Of a DNA stretch of 64,000 nt, positions 28,761 to 64,000 are shown piece after piece. The translations under genes and the position numbers were made by a program. The stretch's first letter is position 1. Every line of letters starts with the position of its first letter. Source of the stretch: Zobellia uliginosa (GTDB lineage: Bacteria > Bacteroidota > Bacteroidia > Flavobacteriales > Flavobacteriaceae); the NCBI RefSeq assembly GCF_018860745.1, contig NZ_JAHKPY010000005.1, forward strand, positions 34,150 to 98,149, in the 5' to 3' direction. The notes beneath the pieces are model-generated. The model worked only from the letters and a program-made list of their open reading frames with translations. It searched no databases and was not told where the DNA came from.

Positions 28761-28800
28761 GGATATATGTAATTGTACACATATCCGTACGTTGTGCTAC
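28761..28800 (+). other. attI-like primary insertion site
   Basis: An imperfect inverted repeat (GGATATATGTA / TACACATATCC, 10 of 11 paired) at 28761-28786 is followed by CGTT at 28790-28793. The first cassette tag GTTGTGCTAC begins at 28791. The CGTT matches the right end of all later sites, but there is no long structured body here, as expected for a primary site versus cassette sites. The hairpin may also terminate the recombinase transcript. Confidence 0.65.
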
Positions 28801-28802
28801 AT

Positions 28803-29732
28803 ATGAAAAATCAAATTTTAATCATAATCTCAACATTTCTTTTTCTTACCTGCACGAAGGAAAACATGGCGGAAACATACCTCAATTCTGCTATTGATAT
28901 TATGCAAGAAAATTCAATAAAAACTGAAAGTATCAATTGGAAAAACCTAAGGGATAATGCTAATAAAAATTTGAAAGGTAAACGAACTATCGAAGAAGTA
29001 TATCCAATAATTGAAAGTACATTAAAAGAATTAGGAGACAATCATAGCTTTTTCTTACCAAAATCAACTGATTCAATTAAAGCAGAAAGTGAAGGGACGA
29101 TACCCCAAATTGAAGCTAAAATTTTTAACAAACAAATTGCTTATTTAAAAATCCCTGCATTTAATAACGGTGGAAACCTTGCCAGTAGATTTGCCTCAAA
29201 AATCCAGAATAAAATAAAAGCTATGGATAAACCTGAAATTAAAGGGTGGATTGTAGATTTATCTGAAAATTACGGAGGGAATATGTGGCCAATGTATCTT
29301 GGACTAGCCCCACTAATAGGCGAAGGTATTTCAGGATATTTTTTTGATTGGGAGCAAAACAGCGCAGAATGGAGTTTCAAAAATAACGCTGTGTACAATA
29401 AAGAGGATATTAAACTAGAAATTGAAAACTCATACGTGCTAAATAAGACACCAACTAAGATTGCTATCTTAACTGGTCAAATGACAGCAAGTTCGGGAGA
29501 AGCAATAGTAATAGCATTCAATGGACTTTCTTCTACTAAGTCATTTGGTGAAAAAACTTTAGGACTATCAACAGGAAACACCGTTTATGAACTAAGTGAT
29601 GGAGCTAGACTTATTCTTACCACTACAATTATGGCTGATAGGCTAAAAAACTTATATGGTGGACAAATTAAGCCTGATGTGCTAACCACTAATCCAAAAG
29701 GAAAAGCAATTGAGTGGCTTATGGAAAAGTAA
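28803..29732 (+). CDS. S41 family peptidase (cassette 1)
   Basis: A 309-aa tail-specific-protease-type enzyme. An N-terminal lipoprotein-like signal (TFLFLTC), a helical segment, then the S41 core: QIAYLKIPAFNNGG, GWIVDLSENYGGNM, and MTASSGEAIVIAF with the likely catalytic serine. No PDZ domain is obvious. ATG 28803 lies 11 bp inside the cassette; the longer frame from 28773 would start upstream of the cassette boundary and is rejected. Expected to act in the periplasm. Its substrate is unknown. Confidence 0.85.
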   Translation: MKNQILIIISTFLFLTCTKENMAETYLNSAIDIMQENSIKTESINWKNLRDNANKNLKGKRTIEEVYPIIESTLKELGDNHSFFLPKSTDSIKAESEGTIPQIEAKIFNKQIAYLKIPAFNNGGNLASRFASKIQNKIKAMDKPEIKGWIVDLSENYGGNMWPMYLGLAPLIGEGISGYFFDWEQNSAEWSFKNNAVYNKEDIKLEIENSYVLNKTPTKIAILTGQMTASSGEAIVIAFNGLSSTKSFGEKTLGLSTGNTVYELSDGARLILTTTIMADRLKNLYGGQIKPDVLTTNPKGKAIEWLMEK

Positions 29733-29735
29733 TAC

Positions 29736-29936
29736 GTAGCACAACAAAACCTATAAACAATACGGGCATCGGGCTTAAACGAAAGGTTTGTGTATTTTTA
29801 TGAGGTCGCGAAATCTTTTGGATTTCGCTTTGACACAAAAAAAGAAAAAACAAAACCAAAAGATTTCGCTATGTTCGTGGTGGAAAGCAAACGCTGGTTT
29901 GCTCCCGTACTGTTCATAGCTAGACCGTTCTCTGCA
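29736..29936 (+). repeat. cassette-end site 1 (attC-like, long class)
   Basis: Left arm GTAGCACAAC is the inverted complement of the start of cassette 1; right arm GTTCTCTGCA opens cassette 2. Inner stem CTATAAACAATACGG pairs with CCGTACTGTTCATAG except two A.C pairs. Hairpin GCGAAATC/GATTTCGC with a third matching copy (AGATTTCGC) further right. Confidence 0.9.
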
Positions 29937-29953
29937 AGTTAAAAAACGAATCG

Positions 29954-32161
29954 ATGAAAAAAATACTAATAGTATTACTGACAATTGTTTCGATCAGTTG
30001 TCAAGCCCAAAAACCTGAAAAATACAATCTCGGTTTTGAAAAACAGAGTGACAGTGCATCACTTTCTGACGGATGGGTTAAATGGGGTAATTATGAATTA
30101 ACAACAGATTCCTTTGCTCATTCAGGCACAAAATCAGGAAAAATCACATCTGACCAAACAGGAAGTTCTTTTGGGAGTATTGCATACAAAATCCCAGCAA
30201 ACTATGAAGGAAAAGAAATAAGACTTGAGGGATTTATGAAAATCAAAGATGTTGAAAACGGATTTGCAGGTTTGTTGTTAAGAGTTGACGGGAGTGGTAC
30301 TTCTTTGGCATTTGACAATATGCAAAATCAAAACATAACAGGGACTAGGGATTGGCAGAAGTATAATATAACTCTCAGCTATCCAGAAGGAGCAGAAAAT
30401 ATATTTATTGCAGGAATACTTACAGGCAAAGGCGAAGCTTGGTTTGATGATTTTGTTTTATCAATTGATGGTAAAAATGTACAAACTTTAAAAGAAGTAG
30501 AAAAAAAATTATCAAAAGCACAACTTGACAAAGAATTTGATAATGGGTCTTTAATTGAGTTTTCTAATTTGACTTCTGAAAATACTGAGAACCTTGAATT
30601 GTTAGGCAGAGTTTGGGGATTTCTCAAATATCATCATCCCGAAATTGCAAATGGAAACTACAATTTGGACTATGAACTTTTTAGGTTCTTACCACAATAC
30701 GTTAAGGCAGAAAACACTATCAAAAGAGATAAACTTCTTATTGAATGGATTAACTCTTTTGGTCAAGTAAAAGAATGTACAAAATGTCAGCCGACAAATG
30801 AAAATGCTTTTCTGAAACCCAATATGGAATGGATTAACAATCAAAGTGCAGATTTGAAAAACAAATTGCTTTACGTTTACAACAACCGTTCACAAGGTAA
30901 ACACTATTATATCGGGATTACTACAAATGTTGGCAACCCCGAATTTAAAAATGAAAATCCATATTCAAATATGCCTTACCCAGATGATGGCTTTAGACTA
31001 CTATCACTTTATCGGTATTGGAATATGATTAACTACTTTTTCCCATACAAACACTTAATGGATGAAGATTGGAACAAAAAATTAATAGAATATATTCCGC
31101 TATTCATAAATGCAAAAAATGAGTTGGAATATGAATTGGCAACAGTTCAAATAATTGGTGATATACAAGATACTCACGCAAATCTTTGGGGTGGAGCGGA
31201 CAAAATTGATGAATGGAAAGGCTCAAACTATCCACCAATACACGTTCGTTTTATCAAAAATCATTTGGTTGTCACAGATTATTACAATCAAGAATTAAAA
31301 AACAAAGTTGGATTAAAAATTGGTGATGTAATTACCAAAATAAATGGCAACCCAATCGACAAAATCGTAAATGAAAAATCTAAATATTATCCAGCTTCAA
31401 ATGAGCCAACAAGACTACGAGATATTTCGGCAGACCTTTTACGCTCAAACTCGAATAATATTGAAATTGAGTTTGTTTCGGGTAATTCCAAACCTCAAAC
31501 AAAGAATCTTAAACTATACCCAAAAGATAGCCTTGACATTTATCGTTGGTACAGAAAAAGTGATGGTAAATCCTTTAAAATGTTGGATAACAACATAGGC
31601 TATGTTACACTTCAAACAATCAAAGAAGATGATATTGCACAAATCAAAGATGATTTTAAAAACACTAAAGGAATGATCATTGACATCCGCAATTATCCGT
31701 CAACTTTTGTTCCTTTTAGTTTAGGTTCTTATTTCGTTTCTTCTTCCACACCTTTTGTGAAATTTACGAACGGAAATGTTGATAACCCAGGCGAATTTAC
31801 ATTTACAAGTAATTTAGAAATTCCGAGTCAAGGCAAAACTTACAAGGGGAAATTAGTTGTATTAGTCAATGAATTATCTCAAAGTCAAGCAGAATATACT
31901 TCAATGGCATTTCGAGCAGGCGATAATACTAAAATTATAGGAAGTACAACAGCAGGAGCAGACGGAAACGTATCAGCAATTATGCTTCCCGGAGGATTAA
32001 GAACAATGATTTCAGGAATTGGGGTTAACTATCCAAATGGCGGTGAAACGCAAAGAATTGGAATTGTTCCAGACATAGAAGTTCATCCAACCATTGAAGG
32101 AATAAGACAAGGAAAAGATGAATTACTTGAAAAAGCGATTGAAATCATCGTGAAGGAATAA
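29954..32161 (+). CDS. multidomain S41 peptidase (cassette 2)
   Basis: A 735-aa exported protease. Lipoprotein signal (VSISC, Cys16), a jelly-roll/carbohydrate-binding-like domain about 20-170 (GFEKQSDSASLSDGW..., GEAWFDDFVLSIDG), a helical region, and a PDZ-like segment (KNKVGLKIGDVITKINGNPI). The S41 core has GYVTLQTI, MIIDIRNYPSTFVP and ELSQSQAEYTSMAF (serine). Starts 26 bp inside its cassette. Second S41 gene in a row, yet only loosely similar to cassette 1, so not a simple duplication. Confidence 0.87.
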   Translation: MKKILIVLLTIVSISCQAQKPEKYNLGFEKQSDSASLSDGWVKWGNYELTTDSFAHSGTKSGKITSDQTGSSFGSIAYKIPANYEGKEIRLEGFMKIKDVENGFAGLLLRVDGSGTSLAFDNMQNQNITGTRDWQKYNITLSYPEGAENIFIAGILTGKGEAWFDDFVLSIDGKNVQTLKEVEKKLSKAQLDKEFDNGSLIEFSNLTSENTENLELLGRVWGFLKYHHPEIANGNYNLDYELFRFLPQYVKAENTIKRDKLLIEWINSFGQVKECTKCQPTNENAFLKPNMEWINNQSADLKNKLLYVYNNRSQGKHYYIGITTNVGNPEFKNENPYSNMPYPDDGFRLLSLYRYWNMINYFFPYKHLMDEDWNKKLIEYIPLFINAKNELEYELATVQIIGDIQDTHANLWGGADKIDEWKGSNYPPIHVRFIKNHLVVTDYYNQELKNKVGLKIGDVITKINGNPIDKIVNEKSKYYPASNEPTRLRDISADLLRSNSNNIEIEFVSGNSKPQTKNLKLYPKDSLDIYRWYRKSDGKSFKMLDNNIGYVTLQTIKEDDIAQIKDDFKNTKGMIIDIRNYPSTFVPFSLGSYFVSSSTPFVKFTNGNVDNPGEFTFTSNLEIPSQGKTYKGKLVVLVNELSQSQAEYTSMAFRAGDNTKIIGSTTAGADGNVSAIMLPGGLRTMISGIGVNYPNGGETQRIGIVPDIEVHPTIEGIRQGKDELLEKAIEIIVKE

Positions 32162-32165
32162 AACC

Positions 32166-32301
32166 TGCAGAGAACAATGTATATAAAAAATAGGCGAGAT
32201 AGTAATAAATTCAAGGCTTTTGGCTCGTATCAAACTTTGTGCTTAAACGATAGTTCAGTGCTTCGAATCGCCTACTTTTCATATACTTAACGTTGTAATC
32301 A
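32166..32301 (+). repeat. cassette-end site 2 (attC-like, middle class)
   Basis: 136 bp. Left arm TGCAGAGAAC mirrors the start of cassette 2; right arm GTTGTAATCA opens cassette 3. Inner stem GTATATAAAAAATAGGCG against CGCCTACTTTTCATATAC, with A.C at stem positions 7 and 12. Confidence 0.85.
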
Positions 32302-32362
32302 ATAGCTAAAAAAAACAAATCAACTCCACTTGCCATTAGATTATAAGCTAAATTGATTTTTT

Positions 32363-33514
32363 CTAATCTAACATTAATTGTAGTAAATCAGAAATCAAGA
32401 GTTGACGTTCATCGGGTTGGACTTGAGCATTAAAAAGCAGTACCAAAGCGTTTTTTCCTTCTAGGTCAAGAATCATGGTTGAGCTAAAACCCGCTGTGTC
32501 TCCGCCATGCCATAAAAAAGTTTTTTCAGGTAGAGCCTTGTTTACATATTCATGCCAACCCAAACAGCTTCTTACCTTGAAAAAATCAACATCTTCATAT
32601 TCATTAAAATAAAGAGTATGTGTCATTTTAATTGCATCCCCAAGCCTTGATTCAGATGGATTAAGGTTTGCATAAGCATATGTTAATAAATCCATCATTG
32701 TTGACTTAATAACACCTGCCCCATCTAATGCATTTAAAGATTTCCAGTAGTCCGCTTCTTTACCATTAAGTCCATAACCTTGCGCCCATTGGGCTAAATT
32801 CGTTTCATTAAAATAGGCTGTAGTATTGTTTAAATTCAAAGGCTCTGCGAGTTTTTGGCGAAGTACTTCTCCATAATCCATATCATAATTGCGTTCTAAA
32901 ATGGTGCCTACCACACCCATTCCAGCATTAGAATATGAGTATTGAGTAAAAGGGTCTGCATGCAAACGAGCATTTTCTAAAAACGAGTATAAACGCCGAT
33001 TATCATAATCGGCGTATGCCTTTGCAGGATTCTTTAGAAGTTTAAAATTACTCGGCATTCTAGCTAAACCAGAAGTATGGGTAAGCAAATGTTTAAAATT
33101 AACCTCTATTCCATTTCTATTTAAAGTTGGCAGGTCGTCAGGGAGGTAGGATTTTATCGGTGTATCGACGTTTGAATCTTGTTCTAAAAGCATTTGCGCA
33201 GCCATTATTGCGGTAAAAGTCTTTGTAATAGAACCTATTTCATAAAAGGTGTTTTCATTTGGTATTGTTCCATTCCCTTTTTTAGTTTCACCATAACCAT
33301 AAAAAGAGATGTCCTCACCCTTAATAATACCAATTGATAGACCAACTGTATTTAATTTATCCTTGTAGGTCTCATATACTTCATTAACAGCAATATCCGT
33401 TGAAGAAGATAATGGATTATTAGTAAGTTCTGCTGGTACAAATTCAGCTTTAGAACATGATACGAGAAGAAGAAAAGAAAACGCTAGTAAAACAATGTAT
33501 TTTATTTTTTTCAT
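32363..33514 (-). CDS. beta-lactamase-fold serine hydrolase (cassette 3, reversed)
   Basis: A 383-aa class C beta-lactamase/penicillin-binding-like lipoprotein. Lipobox LLLVSC, then SITKTF (SxxK nucleophile), YSNAGMG (YxN) and HGGDTAGF (HxG, third motif). Such proteins are esterases or D-amino-acid peptidases more often than true beta-lactamases. It lies on the minus strand, opposite to the array. ATG 33514 was preferred to GTG 33520, which would overlap the upstream stop by 3 bp. Second gene of a two-gene reversed unit. Confidence 0.85.
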   Translation of the reverse strand: MKKIKYIVLLAFSFLLLVSCSKAEFVPAELTNNPLSSSTDIAVNEVYETYKDKLNTVGLSIGIIKGEDISFYGYGETKKGNGTIPNENTFYEIGSITKTFTAIMAAQMLLEQDSNVDTPIKSYLPDDLPTLNRNGIEVNFKHLLTHTSGLARMPSNFKLLKNPAKAYADYDNRRLYSFLENARLHADPFTQYSYSNAGMGVVGTILERNYDMDYGEVLRQKLAEPLNLNNTTAYFNETNLAQWAQGYGLNGKEADYWKSLNALDGAGVIKSTMMDLLTYAYANLNPSESRLGDAIKMTHTLYFNEYEDVDFFKVRSCLGWHEYVNKALPEKTFLWHGGDTAGFSSTMILDLEGKNALVLLFNAQVQPDERQLLISDLLQLMLD

Positions 33515-33519
33515 ACCCA

Positions 33520-34170
33520 CTAAAATTTACATAAGATACCTAGAGAAATACCATATTCAAATCCCTCCGTAATTTTTGCATATTTCCCACCATCCAATTT
33601 GATTAACTGATACCCTATAACAGGTGCGAAAGAAGCTGATTTTATTTTAAAAATATCATAACTGTATTGTAATTTAATGGATGGTCCAAAATTACTTTTA
33701 GTACTTTTTTGTTTTACAAATTCACCTTCTGAATTATATTCAAAACGGTCATATAAGAAATTTGTTAAAATATAGTTCCCAGCCAAGGTTACCCTAATAG
33801 CACCACGTTTAACAGGCTCGAAACGATATTGTATTCCGAGACCAATTATATAACGGTTTTCAGTTTCTTCTGAATTATAGAAGCCTAAAGATGAATAATA
33901 GGCAAAAGAATGTTTACGTTTATTGTAAAAATCTTTAGCATAAAAGCCTGAAGCGCCAACATCTAATCCATCCCAGAGGTCTAAAATATAGGTGTCTAAA
34001 AATAAACCTGTAGTAGTAGCTTTTTTTGTTTCTAGTTCATTATTGGTTTGTCCATACCCAGTTGAAAAGCCTAAAATGAATAGAATTAATACGGGAAATT
34101 TAATTGAATATTTGATGCTGTTCTTATTTTTAGATGATTTACTGAAAGTATTTTCTTGTAAACACAACAT
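33520..34170 (-). CDS. predicted outer-membrane beta-barrel protein (cassette 3, reversed)
   Basis: A 216-aa protein with a signal peptide about 23-41 (GFSTGYGQ end). Alternating aromatic/glycine strands follow (FAYYSSLGFYN, RYIIGLGIQYRFE, VTLAGNYILTNFLYDR, GPSIKLQYSYDIF) and it ends in F, as barrel proteins usually do. No family is recognised. It precedes the serine hydrolase gene on the minus strand with no gap. A TAGTTTTG element (34185-34192) lies just upstream, so this cassette carries its own leftward promoter. Confidence 0.65.
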   Translation of the reverse strand: MLCLQENTFSKSSKNKNSIKYSIKFPVLILFILGFSTGYGQTNNELETKKATTTGLFLDTYILDLWDGLDVGASGFYAKDFYNKRKHSFAYYSSLGFYNSEETENRYIIGLGIQYRFEPVKRGAIRVTLAGNYILTNFLYDRFEYNSEGEFVKQKSTKSNFGPSIKLQYSYDIFKIKSASFAPVIGYQLIKLDGGKYAKITEGFEYGISLGILCKF

Positions 34171-34184
34171 GGTTCTCTACAATC

Positions 34185-34192
34185 CAAAACTA
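34185..34192 (-). promoter_or_regulatory. -7 element for the reversed genes of cassette 3
   Basis: On the minus strand this reads TAGTTTTG, a TAnnTTTG match, 15 bp before the barrel-protein ATG. The upstream TTG is not convincing. Confidence 0.45.
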
Positions 34193-34367
34193 GTATTTTA
34201 CAATTTTAGTACTTGACTTAAAAAGTTAAATTAAATGTAATTTGTAAATGAAGCTCCTCTCAGTATAACACAGATGGACATTATCAAGACGCAACAGATG
34301 AGCAGATGGACTTTACTCGGTCGGAAAAAGACGGAATCGAATTGTACCTACTCGGACGGGAAGCTAC

Positions 34368-34569
34368 TGATTACAACAAAACCTATAAACAATACGGGCT
34401 TTGGGTTTAAACCAATGGGTTTGTGTATTTTTATGAGGTCGCGAAATCTTTGGGATTTCGCTTTGACACAAAAAAAGAAAAAACAAAACCAAAAGATTTC
34501 GCTATGTGCGTGGCGGAAAGTAAACGCCAGTTTGCTCCCGTACTGTTCATAGCTAAACCGTTATCTGCA
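34368..34569 (+). repeat. cassette-end site 3 (attC-like, long class)
   Basis: Left arm TGATTACAAC mirrors the start of cassette 3; right arm GTTATCTGCA opens cassette 4. Same subfamily as site 1 (inner stem CTATAAACAATACGG; hairpin GCGAAATC/GATTTCGC; third copy AGATTTCGC). Its orientation is unchanged although the genes of cassette 3 are reversed. Confidence 0.9.
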
Positions 34570-34579
34570 AGCTCAAAAA

Positions 34580-35284
34580 ATGGAGAAAATAAAAACCGAC
34601 ATCAATGTAGGTCAACAAATATTCGACAATGTACCGAGTGCTGTTCGTCCAGATTGGGCTGGTTTAATTTTAAAGCGATTTGATAGACATATTGACAAAT
34701 TACCATCGGAAATAATCGGACTTCAGGAAATCATTGAGGATTCGAAAAAATGGAAAGATGCTCACGAACAATTTACTGCGATTAGAAGATTGAATCTAAA
34801 AAACACAGATTCTGAGTTTGAGATATATCTATGCCTTGCAGAATGTATAGCTAAAATCACATACAATGCTACTGGACTGCCCGCACCTTTCGACTCTGAT
34901 AGTGGATTTTACATTCCGCGATTAGCATTAAAATTTGCGGATACAATTTCGGATGAACATTTAAACCAAGAAGTAAAAGCAACTATTCTAATTTTCAATA
35001 GAAACAAAGGGCTTCGAAAAAGTGTGAAAGCTGCTAAAGACCTAATTACATATAAAAAAATAGACGACATCCTTTGGTATGACTGGGACCCAATTGGAAT
35101 TAATGATGTTGCTCCCAGAGATGAATATTCTAGTTACGTGGCAGGTATTTTTAGTTTAAAAAAGGAAGGAGCAGACCGAATAAAAATAGGAAAAAGACTT
35201 TTGGACTTAGAAACAAATACAATCGGAATGCCAAGTGATTTGGAAGAGTGCCTAATCATAGCGGATAAAATATTAGCCCTGTAA
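34580..35284 (+). CDS. uncharacterised protein (cassette 4)
   Basis: A 234-aa soluble protein, family not named with certainty. The N-terminal half is helical; the C-terminal part has YDWDPIGINDVAPRDEYSSYVAGIFSLKKEGAD. This resembles a short alpha/beta unit (DUF1871-like) common in immunity-type and cassette-borne bacterial proteins. No signal peptide and no catalytic motif. Starts 19 bp inside its cassette. Confidence 0.7.
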   Translation: MEKIKTDINVGQQIFDNVPSAVRPDWAGLILKRFDRHIDKLPSEIIGLQEIIEDSKKWKDAHEQFTAIRRLNLKNTDSEFEIYLCLAECIAKITYNATGLPAPFDSDSGFYIPRLALKFADTISDEHLNQEVKATILIFNRNKGLRKSVKAAKDLITYKKIDDILWYDWDPIGINDVAPRDEYSSYVAGIFSLKKEGADRIKIGKRLLDLETNTIGMPSDLEECLIIADKILAL

Positions 35285-35291
35285 AAAGCCA

Positions 35292-35491
35292 GCAGATAAC
35301 AAAACCTATAAACAATACGGGCTTAGGGCTTAATCAATAGGTTTGCGTATTTTTATGAAGTCCGCAAAATCTTTGGGATTTTGCTTTAAACAAGGAAAAG
35401 AAAAAACAAAACAAAAAGATTTTGCTATGTGCGTGGCGGAAAGCAAACGCTAGTTTGCTTCCGTACTGTTCATAGCTAAACCGTTGGCAAC
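35292..35491 (+). repeat. cassette-end site 4 (attC-like, long class)
   Basis: Left arm GCAGATAAC mirrors the start of cassette 4; right arm GTTGGCAACA opens cassette 5. Hairpin GCAAAATC/GATTTTGC with third copy AGATTTTGC: all three copies changed together relative to sites 1 and 3. Confidence 0.9.
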
Positions 35492-35521
35492 AAGCTGAAA
35501 AACGTAATTAATTATACGGAA

Positions 35522-36205: not shown

Positions 36206-36226
36206 CAAATATATCGAATAAAGCCA

Positions 36227-36426
36227 GTTGCCAACAATGGCTAAACGTAATGCGGACTTAAGGGCAAAACCGAAAGGTCTGTGTATATTTATAGTGTCGC
36301 TAAATCTTATGGATTTAGCTTTAGAATAGAAAAAATAAAACTAAACAATAAGTTTTAGCTTAGTGCAAAGAAGGAAACGAAAGGTTTACTTACTACCGCA
36401 CTAAGCTTAGCCCAACCGTTAGCTGC
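36227..36426 (+). repeat. cassette-end site 5 (attC-like, long class)
   Basis: Left arm GTTGCCAAC mirrors the start of cassette 5; right arm GTTAGCTGCA opens cassette 6. Inner stem GGCTAAACGTAATGCGG against CCGCACTAAGCTTAGCC with A.C at positions 7 and 12. Hairpin GCTAAATC/GATTTAGC, third copy TTTTAGC. Confidence 0.9.
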
Positions 36427-56444: not shown

Positions 56445-56475
56445 ATATTATCAAAAAAAAGACCAATTAACTAAT

Positions 56476-56973: not shown

Positions 56974-57037
56974 TTATGGACTAATCAATGTTCGCGCATA
57001 ACTGAGCGCAAATGGACTTTACTCGGACGGAAAATAC

Positions 57038-57239
57038 TTTTGCTAACAAAGCCTAAACGTAATGCGGACCTTTGGGCAAAATCGAAAGGTCTGTGTATAT
57101 TTATAAAGTCGCTAAATCTTATGGATTTAGCTTTGGACAAGAAAAAATAAAACTAAACAATAAGCTTTAGCTTCGTGCGCAGACGGTAACGAAAAGTTTC
57201 CTTACTACCGCACTACGCTTAGCCTAGCCGTTATATGCA
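57038..57239 (+). repeat. cassette-end site 27 (attC-like, long class)
   Basis: Left arm TTTTGCTAAC mirrors the start of cassette 27; right arm GTTATATGCA opens cassette 28. CTAAACGTAATGCGG subfamily; hairpin GCTAAATC/GATTTAGC. Confidence 0.9.
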
Positions 57240-57248
57240 ATTACAAAA

Positions 57249-57827
57249 ATGAACTTAGAAAAATTTTTCTCATCTGAATTGATTCTTGAAAACGAGTCTG
57301 TTTTGTTGCGCCCTTTATCGATTAATGATATTGATACGATAGAATCTATAAGTTATAATAAAGAACTTGGTGAGTTTGGAGCAAGAGTAAAAAACAGAAC
57401 TGATTTAATGAGTTATTTTGACTTTTGTCTTAATTCAAAAAAAGAAAAAGAACTTTACCCTCTAATAATTGTAAATAAAGATGATAATAATCCAATAGGA
57501 TTGACAATGTTTGGAAATATTAATTTCCAGAGCAAAAGATTGGAAATCGGATGGACGTGGATTGGTGAAAAATTCCAAGGAACAGGAATTAATTCAATTT
57601 GTAAACGGCTTCTTCTAAACTATTGCTTTGACGATTTAAAACTTAGAAGAGTAGAATTCAAAATAGATATAAAAAATCTGAAATCACAAAAAGCAATAGA
57701 AAAACTTGGGGCAGTTAAAGAGGGGCTTTTAAGAAATTACAACATTCAATCTTATGGGGAAAGTAAAGGAACTTACGTTTACAGTATCCTGAAAGAAGAA
57801 TGGAAAAAAGCATATAACAAGGTATAA
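57249..57827 (+). CDS. GNAT family N-acetyltransferase (cassette 28)
   Basis: A 192-aa acetyltransferase of the RimJ/RimL-like subgroup: SVLLRPLSINDIDTIESI start, EIGWTWIGEKFQGTGINSI (acetyl-CoA loop), and RRVEFKIDIKNLKSQKAIEKLGAVKEGLLRNY. It may modify a toxin, an antibiotic or a protein N-terminus. The last residues and stop lie in site 28. Confidence 0.92.
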   Translation: MNLEKFFSSELILENESVLLRPLSINDIDTIESISYNKELGEFGARVKNRTDLMSYFDFCLNSKKEKELYPLIIVNKDDNNPIGLTMFGNINFQSKRLEIGWTWIGEKFQGTGINSICKRLLLNYCFDDLKLRRVEFKIDIKNLKSQKAIEKLGAVKEGLLRNYNIQSYGESKGTYVYSILKEEWKKAYNKV

Positions 57828-58007
57828 AAAACATAGGGCGGTTTTGGCTTGCCGAAAGGTCTGTGTTTATTTATAAAGTCGCCAAATATAAAATTTGGCA
57901 TTTTCAACAAAAAAGATAAAAGCAAAATATTATATTTGGCTTAGTACCAAACCGAAACGTATCGCTTATCACCTGCCCTACATTTCTTATACTTATCGTT
58001 GTGCTTA
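57810..58007 (+). repeat. cassette-end site 28 (attC-like, long class)
   Basis: Left arm GCATATAAC mirrors the start of cassette 28; right arm GTTGTGCTTA opens cassette 29. Inner stem GTATAAAAAACATAGGGC/GCCCTACATTTCTTATAC; hairpin GCCAAAT/ATTTGGC; third copy ATATTTGGC. Confidence 0.88.
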
Positions 58008-58017
58008 ATTTAAAAAA

Positions 58018-59121
58018 ATGAAAATCAGAACATTTATTCTCATCATATTTCTAGCAATTTATACTTCAGCCTATTGTCAATTGAGTAGGTCAGAAGAGCA
58101 AAAATTAGACAGTTTAATGAAAGAGAATAAGATACCTGGTGCAAGCTTGAGTATTTTAAAAAACAGCAAAGTTGTCTATAACAAAGGATTCGGAATTAGT
58201 AATGCCTCTAATAAGGTCAACGAAAAGACAATTTTCCAAGCAGCATCACTAAGTAAATTTCCAACTGGATTATTATTTCTTATTAATACTCAAAATCAAA
58301 TATTTGACCTCGACAATGACGTGAATGTCTACCTAAAAACTAATAAGTTAGATGGTTATAACTCAGAGCCAAATACGATTCCAACAATTTCACAACTACT
58401 CAGTCATACAGGTGGTATGAATACGCACGGATTTCTTGGTTATAAACCTAATAGAAAAATTATACCAACCATTGAAAATGTAATTGATGGAAAACATACA
58501 TTTTTGTGGGAATCTGAAATCAAAATTAAGAATAAAGTAAATAGTGAATTTAATTATTCTGGCGGGGGCTATTGTTACTTACAGAAAGTAATAAAAGACA
58601 CTAAGGGAGAGTTATTCAGAACTGTTATGCAAAAAGAGTTATTGCAACCTTTAAATATGAAGAATAGCTATTTTGGTTTAAACCCAAATAAAGAAGATGA
58701 CATCGCATATGGTTATAAAAACGGGAAACCTATTAAGTTTGGATATAGAGTTTATCCCCAAGAAGCTGCCGCAGCATTATGGACTAATTCTTTTGATTAC
58801 TCCCAATTACTACTTGAAGTACTAGCAGGTTTAAACGATGACAAATCTTCAATTTTAACCAAAGAATCCATCGCTTTATTGAAATCACCCGCAAAATTAT
58901 CAAATGGTAAGTTAATTAGGTCTGGATTAGGAGTAGGTCTTCAGTTAGATGAAAATAAAAAAGTGAAAGGGATAAGTCATGGTGGTGCCAATGTAGGATA
59001 TTCCTCTTTTTTCTATTTAAACTTAACCAATGGTTCTGGTTATGTAATTCTTACAAATGCCCATTATGCAAACTTAAAAGAGATAAAAAACCTTATAACG
59101 GAAAACATCGCAGAAAACTAA
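58018..59121 (+). CDS. beta-lactamase-fold serine hydrolase (cassette 29)
   Basis: A 367-aa secreted hydrolase. Signal peptide about 1-20 (TSAYCQ), AASLSKFPTG (SxxK), FNYSGGGYCY (YxG/N position), and HGGANVGYSS (third motif). Same superfamily as the reversed gene in cassette 3 but not close. The stop TAA is the first part of the left arm (TAAGCACAAC) of site 29. Confidence 0.88.
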   Translation: MKIRTFILIIFLAIYTSAYCQLSRSEEQKLDSLMKENKIPGASLSILKNSKVVYNKGFGISNASNKVNEKTIFQAASLSKFPTGLLFLINTQNQIFDLDNDVNVYLKTNKLDGYNSEPNTIPTISQLLSHTGGMNTHGFLGYKPNRKIIPTIENVIDGKHTFLWESEIKIKNKVNSEFNYSGGGYCYLQKVIKDTKGELFRTVMQKELLQPLNMKNSYFGLNPNKEDDIAYGYKNGKPIKFGYRVYPQEAAAALWTNSFDYSQLLLEVLAGLNDDKSSILTKESIALLKSPAKLSNGKLIRSGLGVGLQLDENKKVKGISHGGANVGYSSFFYLNLTNGSGYVILTNAHYANLKEIKNLITENIAEN

Positions 59122-59320
59122 GCACAACAAAACCTATAAACAATACGGGCTTCGGGCTTAATCGCAGGGTTTGCGTATTTTTATGATGTCCGCAAAATCT
59201 TTGGGATTTTGCTTTAAACAAGGAAAAGAAAAAACAAAACAAAAAGATTTCGCTATGTGCGTGGCGGAAAGCAAACGCTAGTTTGCTCCCGTACTGTTCA
59301 TAGCTAAACCGTTGTAGCTA
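59119..59320 (+). repeat. cassette-end site 29 (attC-like, long class)
   Basis: Left arm TAAGCACAAC mirrors the start of cassette 29; right arm GTTGTAGCTA opens cassette 30. Inner stem CTATAAACAATACGGG/CCCGTACTGTTCATAG; hairpin GCAAAATC/GATTTTGC; third copy (GATTTCGC) differs at one base. Confidence 0.9.
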
Positions 59321-59350
59321 ATTTGTAACAACAATCGTGTCAATGACAAA

Positions 59351-60220
59351 ATGAAAAGCAAAATAGAAAACATCAATTTTTCACAGTTTGTTAACCAATC
59401 TATTCCTTTTGAGATTCTCTCAATTAAAGAACTTTATGAAAAACTTGATAAAACTAATTTTGATTTATCTAAACCACATAGAATCGAATTTCATGCACTT
59501 ATTATTATAACAGAAGGAGAAAGCAATCATAATTTAGATTTTAAGGATGAAATTCTTTCGCCTGGTGTAATTCTTCCGCTAGTAAAAGACCAAGTACATT
59601 CATTTAACAAAAAGCTTCTGGTTAAAGGTTATGTGATTTCGTTTGAAGAAAGTTTTATTACTCAGTATTTAAACGAAAAGAACTTATTTCACTTTTTACA
59701 TATTTATCATTCACCAAGTATTTTAATTGGCAAAGAAAACCTAATTAGGTTGAATCCTTTTTTACAAACACTTCAAAATTTACAAAACGATTCCAATAAT
59801 AATCTAAAAGCCGAAATAGTGAATTCAGTTTTTATAGCTTTACTCTTTCAGATTAAACGCTTATCAATCTATCAACACAAAATATTTAAAAGTCAGCGCT
59901 TTAAAGACTTTATTCAATTCAAACAATTAATTACCGAGCATTATAATGAGACACATAATGTAAATGATTATGCCTATAAACTATCTGTTTCCTACAAATA
60001 TTTGAATGATATCTGTAAAGAAATAAGTCAAAAAACAGCCAAAGAATTTTTAGATAGTTGGCTATTGTTAGAAATAAAAAGGAATATTTCTGAAAACAAA
60101 TACACTTCTCAAGAGATTGCCTATAAAATGGGCTTTAACGAACCTTCTAACTTTATTCGTTTCTTTAAAAAATATACAGATTTTACACCAAATCAATTCA
60201 AAGAAAAACTAGTTAAATAA
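59351..60220 (+). CDS. AraC family transcriptional regulator (cassette 30)
   Basis: A 289-aa regulator with an N-terminal cupin-like sensor (about 20-150) and a C-terminal double helix-turn-helix (NDYAYKLSVSYKYLNDICKE ... SQEIAYKMGFNEPSNFIRFFKKYTDFTPNQF). It stands first in a five-gene cassette and likely controls the following detoxification-type genes through the repeats at 60228-60261. Confidence 0.92.
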   Translation: MKSKIENINFSQFVNQSIPFEILSIKELYEKLDKTNFDLSKPHRIEFHALIIITEGESNHNLDFKDEILSPGVILPLVKDQVHSFNKKLLVKGYVISFEESFITQYLNEKNLFHFLHIYHSPSILIGKENLIRLNPFLQTLQNLQNDSNNNLKAEIVNSVFIALLFQIKRLSIYQHKIFKSQRFKDFIQFKQLITEHYNETHNVNDYAYKLSVSYKYLNDICKEISQKTAKEFLDSWLLLEIKRNISENKYTSQEIAYKMGFNEPSNFIRFFKKYTDFTPNQFKEKLVK

Positions 60221-60227
60221 TTTCCAG

Positions 60228-60261
60228 TTAGATATTGACTATCTAAAATTTCTAATAGATA
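60228..60261. promoter_or_regulatory. candidate operator of the AraC-type regulator
   Basis: TTAGATA-TTGAC-TATCTAA is a perfect inverted repeat (60228-60246), and TAGATA occurs once more at 60256-60261. The cluster lies between the regulator stop and the peroxiredoxin-like gene, about 55 bp before its ATG. Confidence 0.45.
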
Positions 60262-60314
60262 ATCAGTTAACTCCTACTCCTTCCAACCTTTGCATCAAAT
60301 AAGAATTGATAAAA

Positions 60315-60977
60315 ATGAGACTTGGAAAACAATTAAAACAAATGAAAGAGGCATCTATAGAGCGTATGCCTCAATCGATAATTCAGATTTTTGAAAATAG
60401 TATTGAAGAAATCAAGAATAACGGATTAAAAGAGAAAGCACTTAAAATAGGGGAACAAATTCCAGATTTACCATTGACAAGCATTGATGGAGAAACGGTT
60501 CTTTTAAGTGAATTACAAAAAGCTGACTATCTAATTCTTAACTTTTATAGAGGTGGGTGGTGTCCTTATTGTAATATGGAGCTGCGTGAATATGAAAGAT
60601 TAAGAAAAGACTTTAATCAATTAAATACTGATATACTAGGTATTAGTGCAGAAAGAGTAGAATATACTAGTCAGACCTTTGATAAGAATTCATTGTCATT
60701 TCCTATTCTTACAGATGTAAATGCTCAGTTGATGAAGGAAATCGGGATTGTATTCCAATTAGACACTGCATCAAAAGAAGAGTATATCAATTTTGGAATA
60801 CATCTAGATGAAATTCATGCCAATAATAGTTTCGAATTACCTGTACCTGCTGTTTATGTCATAAATAAAGATAGAGAAATAGTATATGTCCATATAGAAG
60901 AGGACTATATGACAAGGCTAGAGCCGTCTATCTTATTAGAACTTATAAAAAATAAATTAACAGCTGTTAAATCTTAA
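60315..60977 (+). CDS. peroxiredoxin-like (AhpC/TSA) protein (cassette 30)
   Basis: A 220-aa thiol-peroxidase-type protein: helical N-terminus (1-45), then the thioredoxin fold with YRGGWCPYCNMELREYE. This is a CxxC at the peroxidatic position, as in the 'peroxiredoxin-like' subgroup. Likely reduces peroxides or disulfides in the cytoplasm. ATG 60315 chosen over TTG 60306. Followed 5 bp later by the hydrolase gene. Confidence 0.9.
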   Translation: MRLGKQLKQMKEASIERMPQSIIQIFENSIEEIKNNGLKEKALKIGEQIPDLPLTSIDGETVLLSELQKADYLILNFYRGGWCPYCNMELREYERLRKDFNQLNTDILGISAERVEYTSQTFDKNSLSFPILTDVNAQLMKEIGIVFQLDTASKEEYINFGIHLDEIHANNSFELPVPAVYVINKDREIVYVHIEEDYMTRLEPSILLELIKNKLTAVKS

Positions 60978-60982
60978 CTAAG

Positions 60983-61828
60983 ATGAAAGGAAAAACAATT
61001 AGTATCAACAATTACTCTATCTTTTACAGAGAGGCAGGTAATCCTGAAAATGAAACCATTCTTTTATTACATGGCTTTCCATCTTCGTCTCATATGTATA
61101 GAGAAATCATTAATGAATTATCAGACAAATATCATCTGGTAGCACCTGATTATATAGGTTTTGGGCTGAGTGATATGCCTTTGGTCTCTGAATTTGAATA
61201 CACATTTGAGAACATTGCCAAGTCAGTTTCAGATTTTATAGAAACACTTGGACTCAAGTCTTTTTATTTGCTCATGCATGATTATGGAGGCCCCATAGGA
61301 TTTAGAATAGCCACGACATATCCTAGTTATATCAAAGGTTTAATCATCCAAAATGCTAATGCTTATATGGAAGGTATTGGAGAATGGGGAATGAAAATTG
61401 GCACGTTTAAAAAGAATAATGACATAGAAGGACTCTTAAAGTTTAAGGACTATCTAATTTCTCTAGAAGGGTTAAAAGATCAATACTTAAACGAAGCTTC
61501 TAATCCTGATAAAGTAGACCCAATATCTTACTTGACAGACAAGGCTTTTCTAAACAGAACAAATGCCAACGAGGTTCAAACAGCATTGTTTTCAGATTAC
61601 GGTAGTAATTTCCCAAAATACACAGAATGGCAAGAATATTTTAAAAATCACCAACCTAAAACACTAGTTCTTTGGGGTAAAAATGATAGATATTTTAATC
61701 AAAATGGAGCCAAAGAATACAGTAAGGATCTTCAAAATATTGAAATGCATTTCTTTGAAGGAGGACATTTTATGCTTGAAGAATATGCTAAAGAAGCAAC
61801 AGAATTAATTACAAACTTTATAAACTAA
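60983..61828 (+). CDS. alpha/beta hydrolase (cassette 30)
   Basis: A 281-aa haloalkane-dehalogenase/epoxide-hydrolase-like enzyme: LLLHGFPSSSHMYRE (oxyanion HG), LLMHDYGGPIGFR with Asp as the nucleophile in HDYGG, LWGKNDRYF (acid) and EGGHFMLEE (His). Asp at the nucleophile elbow favours dehalogenase or epoxide hydrolase over esterase. Third gene of the cassette operon. Confidence 0.9.
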   Translation: MKGKTISINNYSIFYREAGNPENETILLLHGFPSSSHMYREIINELSDKYHLVAPDYIGFGLSDMPLVSEFEYTFENIAKSVSDFIETLGLKSFYLLMHDYGGPIGFRIATTYPSYIKGLIIQNANAYMEGIGEWGMKIGTFKKNNDIEGLLKFKDYLISLEGLKDQYLNEASNPDKVDPISYLTDKAFLNRTNANEVQTALFSDYGSNFPKYTEWQEYFKNHQPKTLVLWGKNDRYFNQNGAKEYSKDLQNIEMHFFEGGHFMLEEYAKEATELITNFIN

Positions 61829-61834
61829 ATAATT

Positions 61835-62221
61835 ATGAAAAAAAATAAAATCATTTATTGGATAGCAACTGGACTATTAACGCTCTTATTTTTCGCTGGA
61901 GCAATGATGTATATTTTTAACTACCCAAGAGCAGAAGGCTTTTTTATAAGCCTTGGATTTCCAACTTGGATTATTTATCCCTTGGCAATACTTAAAATTT
62001 TAGGAGTAATTGCGATATTAACTAAGAAATCCAATTTCTTGAAAGAACTCGCTTATTCTGGTTTCTTATTTGACGTGATTTTAGCCCTAGCAGCTCACAT
62101 TATCGTAAGTGATGGAGAATATGCTCCGGCAATAATAGCTTTAGTTCTTATAGCTATTTCATGGTTTTTCGATAGAAAAGTATTTGGAAACTACATTCAA
62201 AGAGTTATTAAAAAAGAATAG
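61835..62221 (+). CDS. DoxX-like membrane protein (cassette 30)
   Basis: A 128-aa protein with four hydrophobic helices (about 8-28, 45-62, 72-90, 97-113) and FISLGFPTWIIYPLAILKILGVIAIL, the DoxX_2-type core. Often linked with stress genes. Fourth gene of the cassette, 6 bp after the hydrolase gene and 3 bp before the next. Confidence 0.85.
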   Translation: MKKNKIIYWIATGLLTLLFFAGAMMYIFNYPRAEGFFISLGFPTWIIYPLAILKILGVIAILTKKSNFLKELAYSGFLFDVILALAAHIIVSDGEYAPAIIALVLIAISWFFDRKVFGNYIQRVIKKE

Positions 62222-62224
62222 TTT

Positions 62225-62623
62225 ATGGACATTAAAAAAAACGAAGCTGTAGTAAAAAAAGTTATAGATGATCTTATACAAACAGCGACTAATTTTGATA
62301 TTAAAAAATTAGACCATATATATCATGACAACCTCAGCGTTATTATGATAGATACAGATGATAATTTAAATATAGCAGATAAAGAAACTTTTAAGAGAAT
62401 TTTCAAAAGTAAAAAAGAGGCTGGTGACCCGCCAATGAATACTTGGGCTAAGTATCATAAAATTGATGTGAATAACAATAAAGCTCATGTACTAATATCT
62501 AGAAAGAATAATTTGAGTGGGATAGATCAAATTTTACTTTTAAGTATTGACTTGATTTTCGAAGATAATCGTTGGCAAGTAATACGTGAAGTCATTTTTT
62601 TGAGACCTGATTTGACAAAATAA
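62225..62623 (+). CDS. nuclear transport factor 2-like/DUF4440 protein (cassette 30)
   Basis: A 132-aa cone-fold protein: VVKKVIDDLIQTATNFDIKKLDHIYHDNLSVIMID, a middle segment DKETFKRIFK, and a beta-sheet end (AHVLISRKNNL..., WQVIREVIFLRP). A small-ligand or hydrolase-related role is typical. Last gene of the five-gene operon; its stop lies 5 bp before the left arm of site 30. Confidence 0.85.
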   Translation: MDIKKNEAVVKKVIDDLIQTATNFDIKKLDHIYHDNLSVIMIDTDDNLNIADKETFKRIFKSKKEAGDPPMNTWAKYHKIDVNNNKAHVLISRKNNLSGIDQILLLSIDLIFEDNRWQVIREVIFLRPDLTK

Positions 62624-62627
62624 AAAC

Positions 62628-62763
62628 TAGCTACAACAATGTATAAAAGCAATAGCGGCTCGAGTTCAAATTCGAACCGTTTTTGTGTTTATTTAAGTAT
62701 CTTACTTCCTGAAAAACAAGTGTAATATAACCGCTACTGCTCTTATACGAGCCGTTAGCTACC
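62628..62763 (+). repeat. cassette-end site 30 (attC-like, middle class)
   Basis: 136 bp. Left arm TAGCTACAAC mirrors the start of cassette 30 (3.4 kb away); right arm GTTAGCTACC opens cassette 31. Inner stem GTATAAAAGCAATAGCGG/CCGCTACTGCTCTTATAC, A.C at 7 and 12; hairpin GGCTCGAGTTC/GAACC-type. Confidence 0.88.
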
Positions 62764-62777
62764 ATATCTAAAAAAAC

Positions 62778-63635
62778 ATGAAAAAACTAATCAAAATTAT
62801 TGTAGTTCTATTAATTTTAGTAACAGCATATGGAATTTTTAAATATCAATCCGACCCTTATATAAAGGCTTTGGTAAACAATGATGAGTCTAAACTTTTC
62901 TACCGACCATCGACTGAAATCCAAAATTTAGATGATTTTGAATACTCTGAAAACATATTAAGTGTAGAAGATTCAATTAAAATCCACACCTATTTGTTTA
63001 ACCCAAAAACGGAATTGAAAGCAAACGTTTTTCTAATTCGTGGAAATAGCGGAAATACCAGTCAAGGCAAAGAATTAATTACACCATTAATCGACAATGG
63101 ATTTAAAGTTTATTCAACGGACTGGAGAGGATATGGAAAGTCAAATGGTATACCTAATTACAAAGGAGTAATGAAAGACACCCAAACAGCTTTTGTGGAT
63201 TTTTTGAACCAAACAAAAAATGATAGCGTAAAAACCATAGTTTATGGAATGTCTTTAGGCGGTCAATTAGCAGTTAAGTTAGCTAGAGACAATCAAACTA
63301 AAATTGATGCTTTGGTATTAGACGGAGCATTAGAATCCGCACATAGCTTTATAACTGACAATTTTCGAGAGTTCTATTTACAGAGTTTTACAAAAAATCC
63401 AGAGAATTACAATCAAGAATATGTTGCAATAAGAGATATTACTGACATAAAAAACATCCCTAAGCTTATTATTCATAGTACAGAAGACAGAGCTGTACCA
63501 TTCCAGAGAGGACAGAACCTTTTTGCTAAGGCTAAAGAACCGAAAATGTTTTGGGAAACAAATACTGGACATATTAAAACTCTAACGGACTTACCAGAAG
63601 AGTTAATTGAAAAACTGAACGCATTAATGCGGTAG
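62778..63635 (+). CDS. membrane-anchored alpha/beta hydrolase (cassette 31)
   Basis: A 285-aa serine hydrolase (BEM46/S9-like). N-terminal helix about 4-20, FLIRGNSGNTSQG (oxyanion), DWRGYGKSNG, YGMSLGGQLAVKLA with nucleophile Ser, HSTEDRAVPF (Asp) and TGHIKTL (His). The stop TAG is inside the left arm of site 31. Substrate unknown. Confidence 0.9.
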   Translation: MKKLIKIIVVLLILVTAYGIFKYQSDPYIKALVNNDESKLFYRPSTEIQNLDDFEYSENILSVEDSIKIHTYLFNPKTELKANVFLIRGNSGNTSQGKELITPLIDNGFKVYSTDWRGYGKSNGIPNYKGVMKDTQTAFVDFLNQTKNDSVKTIVYGMSLGGQLAVKLARDNQTKIDALVLDGALESAHSFITDNFREFYLQSFTKNPENYNQEYVAIRDITDIKNIPKLIIHSTEDRAVPFQRGQNLFAKAKEPKMFWETNTGHIKTLTDLPEELIEKLNALMR

Positions 63636-63832
63636 CTAACAATGCCTAAACGTAATGCGGACTTTAGGGCAAAACCGAAAGGTCTGTGTATATTTATAAA
63701 GTCGCTAAATCTTTGGGATTTAGCTTTGGACAAAAAAAGAAAAAGAAAAACCAAAAGCTTTAGCTTCGTGCTCAGACGGAAACGAAAAGTTTCCTTGCCT
63801 CCGCACTACGCTTAGCCGAACCGTTACCCAAC
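63631..63832 (+). repeat. cassette-end site 31 (attC-like, long class)
   Basis: Left arm GGTAGCTAAC mirrors the start of cassette 31; right arm GTTACCCAAC opens cassette 32 (the tag of cassette 13). CTAAACGTAATGCGG subfamily; hairpin GCTAAATC/GATTTAGC. Confidence 0.9.
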
Positions 63833-63922
63833 ATTTGGTACGATATACAAACATCCTTTACAGAGTTATAGAAACATCGTTTACACTTTTTAAGTTGCAT
63901 TTGAAACCAAAATTCAGATGCT

Positions 63923-64000
63923 ATGCCTTGGAAAGAACAGACGATTATGGAACAAAAAATTGAATTTATCTGTGAATGGCGAACTGGAAAATATACCATC
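63923..64000 (+). CDS. IS481-type transposase, N-terminus only
   Basis: Only 26 codons are visible: PWKEQTIMEQKIEFICEW then RTGKYTI. The opening MPWKE..MEQ..EFI.EW is typical of IS481/IS3-like transposases with an N-terminal helix-turn-helix. The rest lies beyond the right edge. It could be an insertion sequence inside cassette 32 or cassette cargo; IS ends cannot be set from this window. Confidence 0.6.
   Translation, partial: MPWKEQTIMEQKIEFICEWRTGKYTI

Follow-up and report, generated by a model that had tools for sequence, protein, structure and literature searches.

The 64,000-nucleotide stretch of Zobellia uliginosa (Flavobacteriaceae) analyzed here, from contig NZ_JAHKPY010000005.1 and referred to below as the window, contains an array of 31 complete cassettes that runs from position 28791 to the contig end in a single orientation, with an integron-like layout, beside a tyrosine recombinase gene. 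Judging from sequence comparison, it is very probable that the adjacent recombinase, which is not of the IntI type, excises these cassettes and inserts them, in the form of folded bottom strands, at a palindromic attI-like site. The recombinase, the palindrome at fixed spacing and the array recur as one unit in many genomes, and the array can be read as a second type of integron, one independent of IntI.

Each cassette starts with GTT followed by 6–7 variable bases and ends with the exact reverse complement of its own start. The two arms of a cassette matched over 9–10 exact bases in 31 of 31 cases, whereas the end of one cassette and the start of the next never reached a match of 9 (0/31); the other start/end pairings that matched (6 of 930) all fell within the cassette pairs 7/20, 9/11 and 18/21, which have common arms. 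A detector that required 8 exact bases in the arm, 3 or more matches among 5 further positions and A·C at arm position 11 gave 33 matches on the array strand, 29 of them non-overlapping, and a single match on the opposite strand of the array; 50 dinucleotide shuffles of the array yielded a mean of 1.1 and a maximum of 4, and both strands of the other 28.7 kb of the window yielded none. A sequence-only reading had proposed 31 structured sites in one orientation, in a region from 28791 on, and cassettes closing with the inverted complement of their own first bases; the site scan and arm comparison bear this out, with the first cassette at exactly 28791. It had also placed the core outside RYYYAAC/GTTRRRY beyond AAC/GTT, in agreement with an invariant GTT/AAC and a full GTTRRRY at only 2 of the 32 starts in the window (with relatives included, in 18 of 429 distinct adjacent cassettes). 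Since contig C2 ends at position 64000, the array is truncated by the assembly; the genome has more cassettes on its contigs C5, C1, C10 and C8.

The cassettes all lie on the forward strand and are listed here with their own coordinates followed by those of the site; the arms match over 9 exact bases in cassettes 4, 5, 6, 23, 24 and 28 and over 10 in the other complete ones. According to Pfam, S41 peptidases are encoded in cassette 1 (28791–29926; 29743–29929) and, with a PDZ domain, in cassette 2 (29927–32291; 32173–32294), while cassette 3 (32292–34559; 34375–34562) carries minus-strand genes for a PF00144 serine hydrolase and an unknown protein. Another PF00144 serine hydrolase is found in cassette 29 (57998–59310; 59126–59313). 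Cassette 8 (38150–40442; 40322–40445) combines a TetR regulator, a short-chain dehydrogenase, a YgaP-like membrane protein and an unknown protein of 138 aa, and cassette 30 (59311–62753; 62635–62756) an AraC regulator with AhpC/TSA, alpha/beta hydrolase, DoxX-like and SnoaL-like proteins; cassette 31 (62754–63822; 63638–63825) encodes an alpha/beta hydrolase. Further recognizable cargo comprises DUF3667 in cassette 9 (40443–41741; 41557–41744), a DUF4062 protein in cassette 15 (46069–47468; 47284–47471), an HNH nuclease in cassette 16 (47469–48516; 48335–48519), a NUDIX hydrolase in cassette 17 (48517–49185; 49001–49188), a 76 aa protein and a polyketide-cyclase-like one of 158 aa (below gathering score) in cassette 19 (49621–50563; 50380–50566), a glyoxalase-family protein in cassette 21 (51411–52139; 51957–52142), a weak SMI1/KNR4-like match in cassette 22 (52140–52908; 52867–52911), a GldB-like lipoprotein in cassette 26 (55267–56434; 56249–56437) and a GNAT acetyltransferase in cassette 28 (57230–57997; 57816–58000).

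Unknown proteins are encoded in cassettes 4 (234 aa; 34560–35482; 35298–35485), 5 (227 aa; 35483–36417; 36233–36420), 7 (245 aa; 37241–38149; 38026–38152), 11 (257 aa; 42436–43352; 43233–43355), 13 (156 aa; 44584–45390; 45205–45393), 14 (45391–46068; 45880–46071), 20 (110 aa; 50564–51410; 51226–51413), 23 (228 aa; 52909–53796; 53613–53799), 24 (150 aa; 53797–54417; 54297–54420) and 25 (211 aa; 54418–55266; 55083–55269). Cassette 10 (41742–42435; 42315–42438) encodes 79 and 110 aa, cassette 12 (43353–44583; 44395–44586) 140 and 205 aa, and cassette 27 (56435–57229; 57045–57232) 165 aa; cassettes 6 (36418–37240; 37056–37243) and 18 (49186–49620; 49499–49623) have no ORF of at least 60 aa, and cassette 32 (63823–64000) is incomplete at the contig end. 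A defence-island reading was rejected, as ten cassette proteins compared with PADLOC gave weak matches only, all to one HNH nuclease. Rfam, applied to 26000–64000, detected a tRNA above gathering score and no attC-type match; two weak sub-gathering matches were set aside as chance.

Every complete cassette has its own trailing hairpin site of 45–192 bp, mostly 120–190 bp, as the earlier description of long sites had it; the shortest, a plain hairpin of 45 bp, belongs to cassette 22. Arm position 11 is an A·C mismatch in 29 of the 31 window cassettes (the exceptions are 24 and 28) and in 218 of 227 chained cassettes from the window and the relatives' loci. In the L stem, A·C occurs at position 13 in 23 and at position 18 in 24 of the 31 sites, with top-strand G·T at neither position in any of them. 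These three frequent mismatches turn into G·T pairs on the bottom strand only, so that the bottom strand folds better: its energy was the lower in 30 of 31 sites (mean −34.4 vs −30.7 kcal/mol; mean z −5.7) and still in 29 of 31 after position 11 had been made Watson–Crick. A bottom-strand hairpin closing each cassette, a trait of IntI-type integrons, is present here, in 30 of 31 sites and with the wobble positions described.

The recombinase (27619–28746, forward strand; 375 aa) matches Pfam PF00589 with 141 bits and PF13495 with 53 bits, and comprises an extra N-terminal domain of about 105 residues, a SAM-like core-binding domain (113–184) and a catalytic domain (204–364), with R235, K260, H324, R327, H350 and Y359 invariant among 20 aligned sequences. 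It likely inserts and shuffles the cassettes. A model of the N-terminal domain reached a mean pLDDT of 81.7. Pfam gave no match to this domain at E 0.01, and Foldseek none to its model within E ≤ 0.001; YgfZ and XPB chains came closest (best E 0.075), along with the SMARCAL1 HARP domain (E 0.45). It may help to read DNA structure; short-form relatives without it likewise have arrays.

We considered whether this is an ordinary IntI integron whose diverged integrase and attC sites were merely missed by the models, and judge it improbable. The cassette and bottom-strand hairpin logic is the same, and in a tree of IntI, the recombinase family and XerC/XerD, whose bootstrap was not fully settled (0.978), IntI and the family stand together against XerC/XerD with support of 100/100; the IntI model also gives the window recombinase 207.6 bits. 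Moreover, in classical integrons the cassettes start 5′ of the integrase gene on the opposite strand, and the genus mates G304 and G001 have this arrangement with a short-form recombinase. Against this, the 16 IntI proteins form a clade of their own (100/100) with the window recombinase outside it, GTTRRRY is hardly kept, and the insertion of about 40 residues specific to IntI is absent: the KGxKxR and HxLRH motifs lie 106 residues apart in the 15 measurable of 16 IntI sequences but 64–65 apart in 33 of 33 members of the family, and the two best stretches matching 2a3v leave IntI residues 180–243 unmatched. The IntI profile had been expected to fail and did, with TIGR02249 giving 207.6 bits against a cut-off of 265, while the NCBIfam model NF040815 (recomb_XerA_Arch) is passed at 237.2 against 220. 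The earlier label "not IntI-like" is right in that the protein, lacking the insertion and scoring below the cut-off, is not IntI, but too strong in that IntI stands nearest to it among the groups tested. As for the order of IntI and the family, the latter holds together as a single group in 32% of the 200 bootstrap trees. Orthology with XerC/XerD failed, the window recombinase being apart (100/100) both from the XerD of this genome (L203, which exceeds the XerD cut-off) and from another paralogue, the putative XerC (L215).

Between the recombinase gene and the first cassette lies the putative attI-like site (28761–28793, forward strand), made up of a 26-base imperfect palindrome (28761–28786), a 4-base spacer and GTT. 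The first GTT (28791) follows the recombinase stop (28746) by 45 bp, and the palindrome centre precedes that GTT by 17 bp. We infer that this is a recombination site. In relatives, the position of the palindrome is kept and its sequence is not: a palindrome with at least 10 of 12 positions paired, 16–18 bp before GTT, was found in 32 of 52 stretches, whereas 40 shuffled sets, in which at least 10 paired positions counted at any spacing, averaged 0.15 and peaked at 2 of 52. The other 20 stretches, the window's own included (9 of 12 paired), fall below the threshold of 10. The cassette adjoining the attI-like site is repeated deeper in the array, at 95% identity or more, in G080, G256, L077 and L097.

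Evidence for cassette movement comes from copies within relatives' arrays and from comparison between species; the window itself holds no copied pairs of this kind. In the relatives' arrays, cassettes with bodies at least 99% identical recur, together with their own site, in other surroundings. Homologous cassettes share their trailing site at a median identity of 95.9% (85 pairs), while the upstream sites are at 56.9% (70 pairs), against 54.3% for random site pairs; between genomes, some close cassette relatives do differ in the trailing site (e.g., 96% body, 61% site). Body identity reaches at least 99% in 43 pairs, which are not independent, as array G080 gives 19 of them. Of these 43, 26 allowed the right edge to be located: it sits exactly at the end of the next GTT in 15, at 4–8 bases in from its G in 9, and inside the site in 2. 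The left edge lies 0–3 bases before GTT in 29 of the 43 pairs. Identity extends more than 3 bases left in 14, several of them owing to joint movement or copying of neighbouring cassettes, and continues into the next cassette in 4; homologous recombination could equally be the source of this extended identity. The proposal that cassettes move as units thus gains support, at the level of sequence, from copies whose homology mostly stops at or near GTT, and single movement of cassettes with their own site (wherever the site allowed comparison), another trait of IntI-type integrons, is seen on comparative evidence in relatives.

A different account of the same rearrangements, which we regard as very unlikely, would treat the sites as a dispersed repeat, with homologous recombination between sites reordering the cassettes and the recombinase a bystander. 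Many sites are indeed alike within the genome (at least 90% over the whole site in 11 places), and some copies moved as blocks. Yet the complementary ends belong to the cassette and not to the site, for most copies the upstream sites differ and the breaks fall at or close to GTT, and the spacing from palindrome to first GTT beside the recombinase is fixed in many genomes.

Related recombinases followed by such arrays occur in other Flavobacteriaceae and other Bacteroidota, with a recombinase match at E ≤ 1e-70 in 72 of 299 sampled Flavobacteriaceae genomes. In 14 of the 37 loci examined, the longest cassette chain begins 44–111 bp past the stop codon of the recombinase, and in 19 others it begins more than 111 bp from the gene; the 4 loci with no cassette are ones where the contig ends within about 250 bases. 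Cassettes of this type were absent from 5 of 20 loci outside Flavobacteriaceae, 2 of which had 20 kb of sequence to scan. A contrast scan of the IntI regions of eight Bacteroidota genomes gave chains of at most 5 and one A·C at position 11 among the chains listed, which is only a hint, since cassettes are poorly recognized there. A reading in which an island occupies the tRNA 1 kb upstream, with the recombinase as its integrase and the array as passive cargo, is scarcely credible: several genus mates do have the tRNA 3′ end again on the same contig, but the recombinase family comes with the same kind of attI-like palindrome and with arrays in many other genomes, and on two plasmids examined.

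Dispersed repeat, island integrase with passive cargo and classical integron were all considered and rejected, and we return to the integron-like reading with its own recombinase. Under this proposal, both arms of one cassette would meet in the excised circle and close the hairpin, consisting of an R stem (11–14 bp beginning with GTT), short unequal spacers, an L stem and a variable loop. The recombinase would bind the folded single strand, cut at GTT and join the cassette to the attI-like site beside its own gene, so that newly acquired cassettes would come to lie next to the recombinase. For the recombinase, the attI palindrome probably serves as a landing site in double-stranded form, with the near half taking the place of the L stem.

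The array shares with IntI integrons the single orientation beside a tyrosine recombinase, the complementary ends, the end-of-cassette hairpin, the favoured bottom strand and the GTT/AAC core. It differs in a recombinase without the IntI insertion, in not keeping GTTRRRY, in arms of 9–14 bp with frequent A·C at position 11, in sites of mostly 120–190 bp and, in most loci, in an attI-like palindrome 3′ of the recombinase gene with cassettes in the gene's direction. The term CALIN denotes cassette arrays without integrase. Contigs C5 and C8, whose cassettes have no recombinase match in the stretch read, resemble CALIN, a word also used in the description of IntegronFinder 2.0, whereas C1 and C10 differ in keeping the attI-like palindrome, and the sites are of a new type. 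The name of NF040815, "site-specific tyrosine recombinase/integron integrase", is a sequence-family label that mentions no arrays, attI or sites. Passages in Smyshlyaev et al. (2021, PMC8138268) describe an "integron-like" tyrosine-recombinase subgroup in which the IntI insertion is not fully conserved; the window family may belong there, and the passages on that subgroup describe no such arrays or sites. Among the papers listed in searches of open-access literature, no title or displayed abstract described these arrays.

On a broader proposal we are evenly divided, namely that the Bacteroidota use a second class of integron, independent of IntI and equipped with its own recombinase, a palindromic attI and a wobble code marking the recombined strand. 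IntI would then be a sister or an offshoot of this class, and one array of the class would have captured tet(X3) before the gene arrived in Acinetobacter. If true, the arrays would show integrons as they were without the IntI domain. IntI with its extra domain is usually taken to define integrons; a cassette system lacking this domain throughout a phylum would show integron-style gene movement to be independent of it and offer a test of integron origins. It would also mean a large cassette pool that IntI searches pass over, given the recombinase match in 72 of 299 sampled family genomes. An attI-like site of this kind also stands before tet(X3) on a plasmid, which suggests a route by which this tigecycline-resistance gene left its source family.

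The array works like an integron, with closed cassettes that carry a folded site, a single landing place and a single direction. It lies outside the IntI integrons, according to three integrase tests and one core test; the claim of the sequence-only reading that the core is not of the IntI type was thereby upheld. The source genome comprises 4.86 Mb in 15 contigs; the window covers 34150–98149 of its contig C2, and the two share the same end. From left to right, the locus consists of a tRNA (26553–26625), a small gene (27174–27554) with a weak match to Pfam DUF2116 under its cut-off, the recombinase gene (27619–28746), 45 bp containing a palindrome, and cassette 1, which starts at 28791. In several genus mates, the 3' end of the tRNA is repeated elsewhere on its contig, comparable with island insertion sites; the genus sample was nine genomes, including the source genome.

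The window contains 31 complete cassettes and a truncated 32nd. Each complete cassette starts with GTT and ends with AAC, and the base after GTT is a purine in 30/31; the units measure 316 to 3327 bp from GTT to AAC, and the sites, which extend from AAC as far as the following GTT, 45 to 192 bp. It had been proposed that each cassette closes with the inverted complement of its own start, and all 31 do so over at least 9 exact bases: the two ends are perfectly reverse-complementary over 9 bases, and over 10 in 25 of 31. Arm position 10 is sometimes mispaired, position 11 opposes A to C in 29/31, and more pairs follow as a rule. The arms flanking one site in the row reached at least 9 exact complementary bases in 0/31 cases, because they derive from two different cassettes; a cassette's own arms meet only once it is closed on itself. 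The complementary ends are a property of the cassette, the same logic as in integron cassettes. Three pairs (7/20, 9/11 and 18/21) have identical arms and bodies without homology at the threshold used, and look as if cassettes had swapped an end. A degenerate repeat, approximately TGGACTT...GCAANTTTGCGC, was seen in the tails of some cassettes, outside the sites (36525–36994 and 49292–49420, family D18). The cargo families in the window include peptidases, PF00144 serine hydrolases, regulators, GNAT, NUDIX, glyoxalase and HNH proteins, and many cassette proteins have no assigned family. No ORF of 60 aa was found in cassettes 6 and 18, and the genes of cassette 3 lie on the opposite strand.

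For every window cassette, the closed site was folded per strand using DNA parameters, and the bottom strand had the lower folding energy in 30/31 sites, the exception being cassette 5. The bottom strand folds better because it forms G.T pairs where the top strand has A.C mismatches, at set positions that include arm position 11 (29/31). With numbering from the initial A of AAC, positions 13 and 18 of the L stem, the inner stem of the hairpin, carry A.C in 23/31 and 24/31 sites, respectively, with no top-strand G.T at either position in the 31 sites. The remaining L-stem pairs covary, e.g., at position 14 (C.G 11, A.T 10, A.C 6, G.C 3, T.A 1), and the bias persisted in 29/31 sites when arm position 11 was set to Watson–Crick. 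Across 332 sites from the window and its relatives, the A.C share at a fixed offset of 2 was 0.40 at position 13, 0.47 at 14 and 0.38 at 18; by best fit, the right-hand spacer exceeded the left by 2 or 3 bases in 329/339 distinct sites. Arm position 11 was A.C in 218/227 chained cassettes, under a filter requiring at least three of five permitted matches, of which A.C at 11 counted as one. The corresponding figure of 418/429 cassettes leans high, since the detector gave extra weight to A.C.

An attI-like site, made up of palindrome, spacer and GTT, lies 3' of the recombinase gene (28761–28793, +). In relatives aligned from the recombinase stop, the palindrome is kept, with letters that vary by genome, and its centre falls 16–18 bp before a GTT. 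At least 10 of 12 positions were paired in 32/52 stretches, 22 of them at 17 bp; at least 9 were paired at 16–18 bp in 40/52, including the window (9 at 17 bp). Shuffled controls (40 sets) gave means of 0.15 and 0.275 of 52 at the two thresholds, with maxima of 2 and 2. Elsewhere in the source genome, attI-like palindromes precede short cassette arrays on contigs C1 (L264:7244) and C10 (L265:11262, minus strand), and neither palindrome is flanked by a recombinase match; the recombinase on C2 may serve them, or they may be relics. The C10 palindrome is preceded by TTTAGATTAG, which matches the end of the recombinase gene and may be a remnant or chance. Cassettes also cover most of the 9,057-base contig C5 on the minus strand (L263:298-8266), probably as part of the same array or another.

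Association and spacing suggest that the neighbouring recombinase acts on the cassettes. Its catalytic residues are all present and invariant across 20 aligned sequences. The protein had been described as not IntI-like, and this was borne out: it exceeds the NF040815 cut-off and falls short of that of the IntI profile TIGR02249, sequence comparison found no IntI insertion in it, and in a tree of 74 proteins it falls outside the single clade of 16 IntI of the phylum (100/100). IntI and the recombinase family group together against XerC and XerD, also at 100/100, in a tree that allows either to be nested in the other. Within the N-terminal domain of ~105 residues (27619–27933), W42 and S43 are invariant in 15 sequences; its slight structural resemblance to XPB and HARP domains was non-significant. 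IntI scored above the model cut-off in 84/296 genomes sampled from Bacteroidota, none of them own-family genomes, which is commoner than the literature consulted would suggest. Several of these IntI-positive genomes also carry relatives of the recombinase.

Counting forms without the N-terminal domain, the recombinase was matched in 72/299 family genomes (E <= 1e-70), and in 63/296 genomes of the order and 79/395 of the phylum (E <= 1e-62), samples that contain own-family genomes. Named organisms with relatives are Maribacter, Pricia, Flagellimonas, Arenibacter, Cellulophaga and Lacinutrix. Cassettes share the recombinase's strand in 42 of the 46 contig strands with at least two A.C cassettes; the four exceptions all come from genus mates with distant recombinases (40–44% identical). 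One genome, G301, has an array of 10 adjoining the recombinase on the same strand and a second array of 7 on the other strand, ~80 kb off. In IntI integrons, cassettes lie 5' of the integrase gene and run away on the opposite strand. A similar layout was found in two genomes with a short-form recombinase, G304 (C3, L133:15749-17334) and G001 (C13:60661-65465; L061 is a portion of its more distant cassettes), where the cassettes lie on its 5' side, start 57–83 bp from the match and head away on the opposite strand. Among 20 loci outside the family, 7 have a chain of at least three cassettes and 2 a chain of two; 6 show one candidate each and 5 have none, three of the last because their contig breaks off immediately. 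Cassettes also occur on plasmids of Chryseobacterium and Pontibacter.

Cassette movement was assessed on 505 cassettes from 47 contig strands, which yielded 112 homologous pairs (two being the same DNA twice). Where neighbours were comparable, the cassette's own trailing site was about as similar (median 95.9%, 85 pairs) as its body (96.7%, 112 pairs). Upstream sites were 56.9% alike versus 54.3% for random sites, and the bodies of neighbouring cassettes 51–52% alike, the random level. Among the 43 pairs whose bodies are at least 99% identical, 26 allowed the right edge to be located: 15 end exactly after the next GTT, 9 end 4–8 bases in from its G, and 2 differ within the site. Of the other 17, 4 stay identical beyond the site and into the cassette that follows; for the remaining pairs, the start of the following cassette is either not known or not equal. 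On the left, the edge falls 0–3 bases ahead of GTT in 29/43 pairs. In genome G080, the first cassette, 48 bp past the recombinase stop, has four more copies in the array, all with the same body sequence. Between genomes, 24 pairs were found at 70–96% identity, with dissimilar neighbours wherever comparable and trailing sites 49–91% alike.

For tet(X3), PMC7494873 reports the gene order xerD-tet(X3)-res-orf1-ISVsa3; according to this paper, direct alignment of the tet(X) surroundings between Flavobacteriaceae and Acinetobacter plus Enterobacteriaceae gave zero hits, and the text next turns to a 397-bp fragment. A recombinase relative on plasmid pHH1107, which carries tet(X3), aligns only to residues 138–375 of the window recombinase, at 54% identity. 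No closing arm of a tet(X3) cassette was found within 6 kb. Between the recombinase relative and tet(X3) lies an attI-like palindrome with a GTT (L100:6055-6916); 9 of 12 positions are paired, centred 17.0 bp before the GTT (spacings of 15–18.5 bp were tried), and tet(X3) starts 18–24 bases past the G of that GTT. This arrangement resembles a first cassette, and suggests that tet(X3) may have arrived as one.
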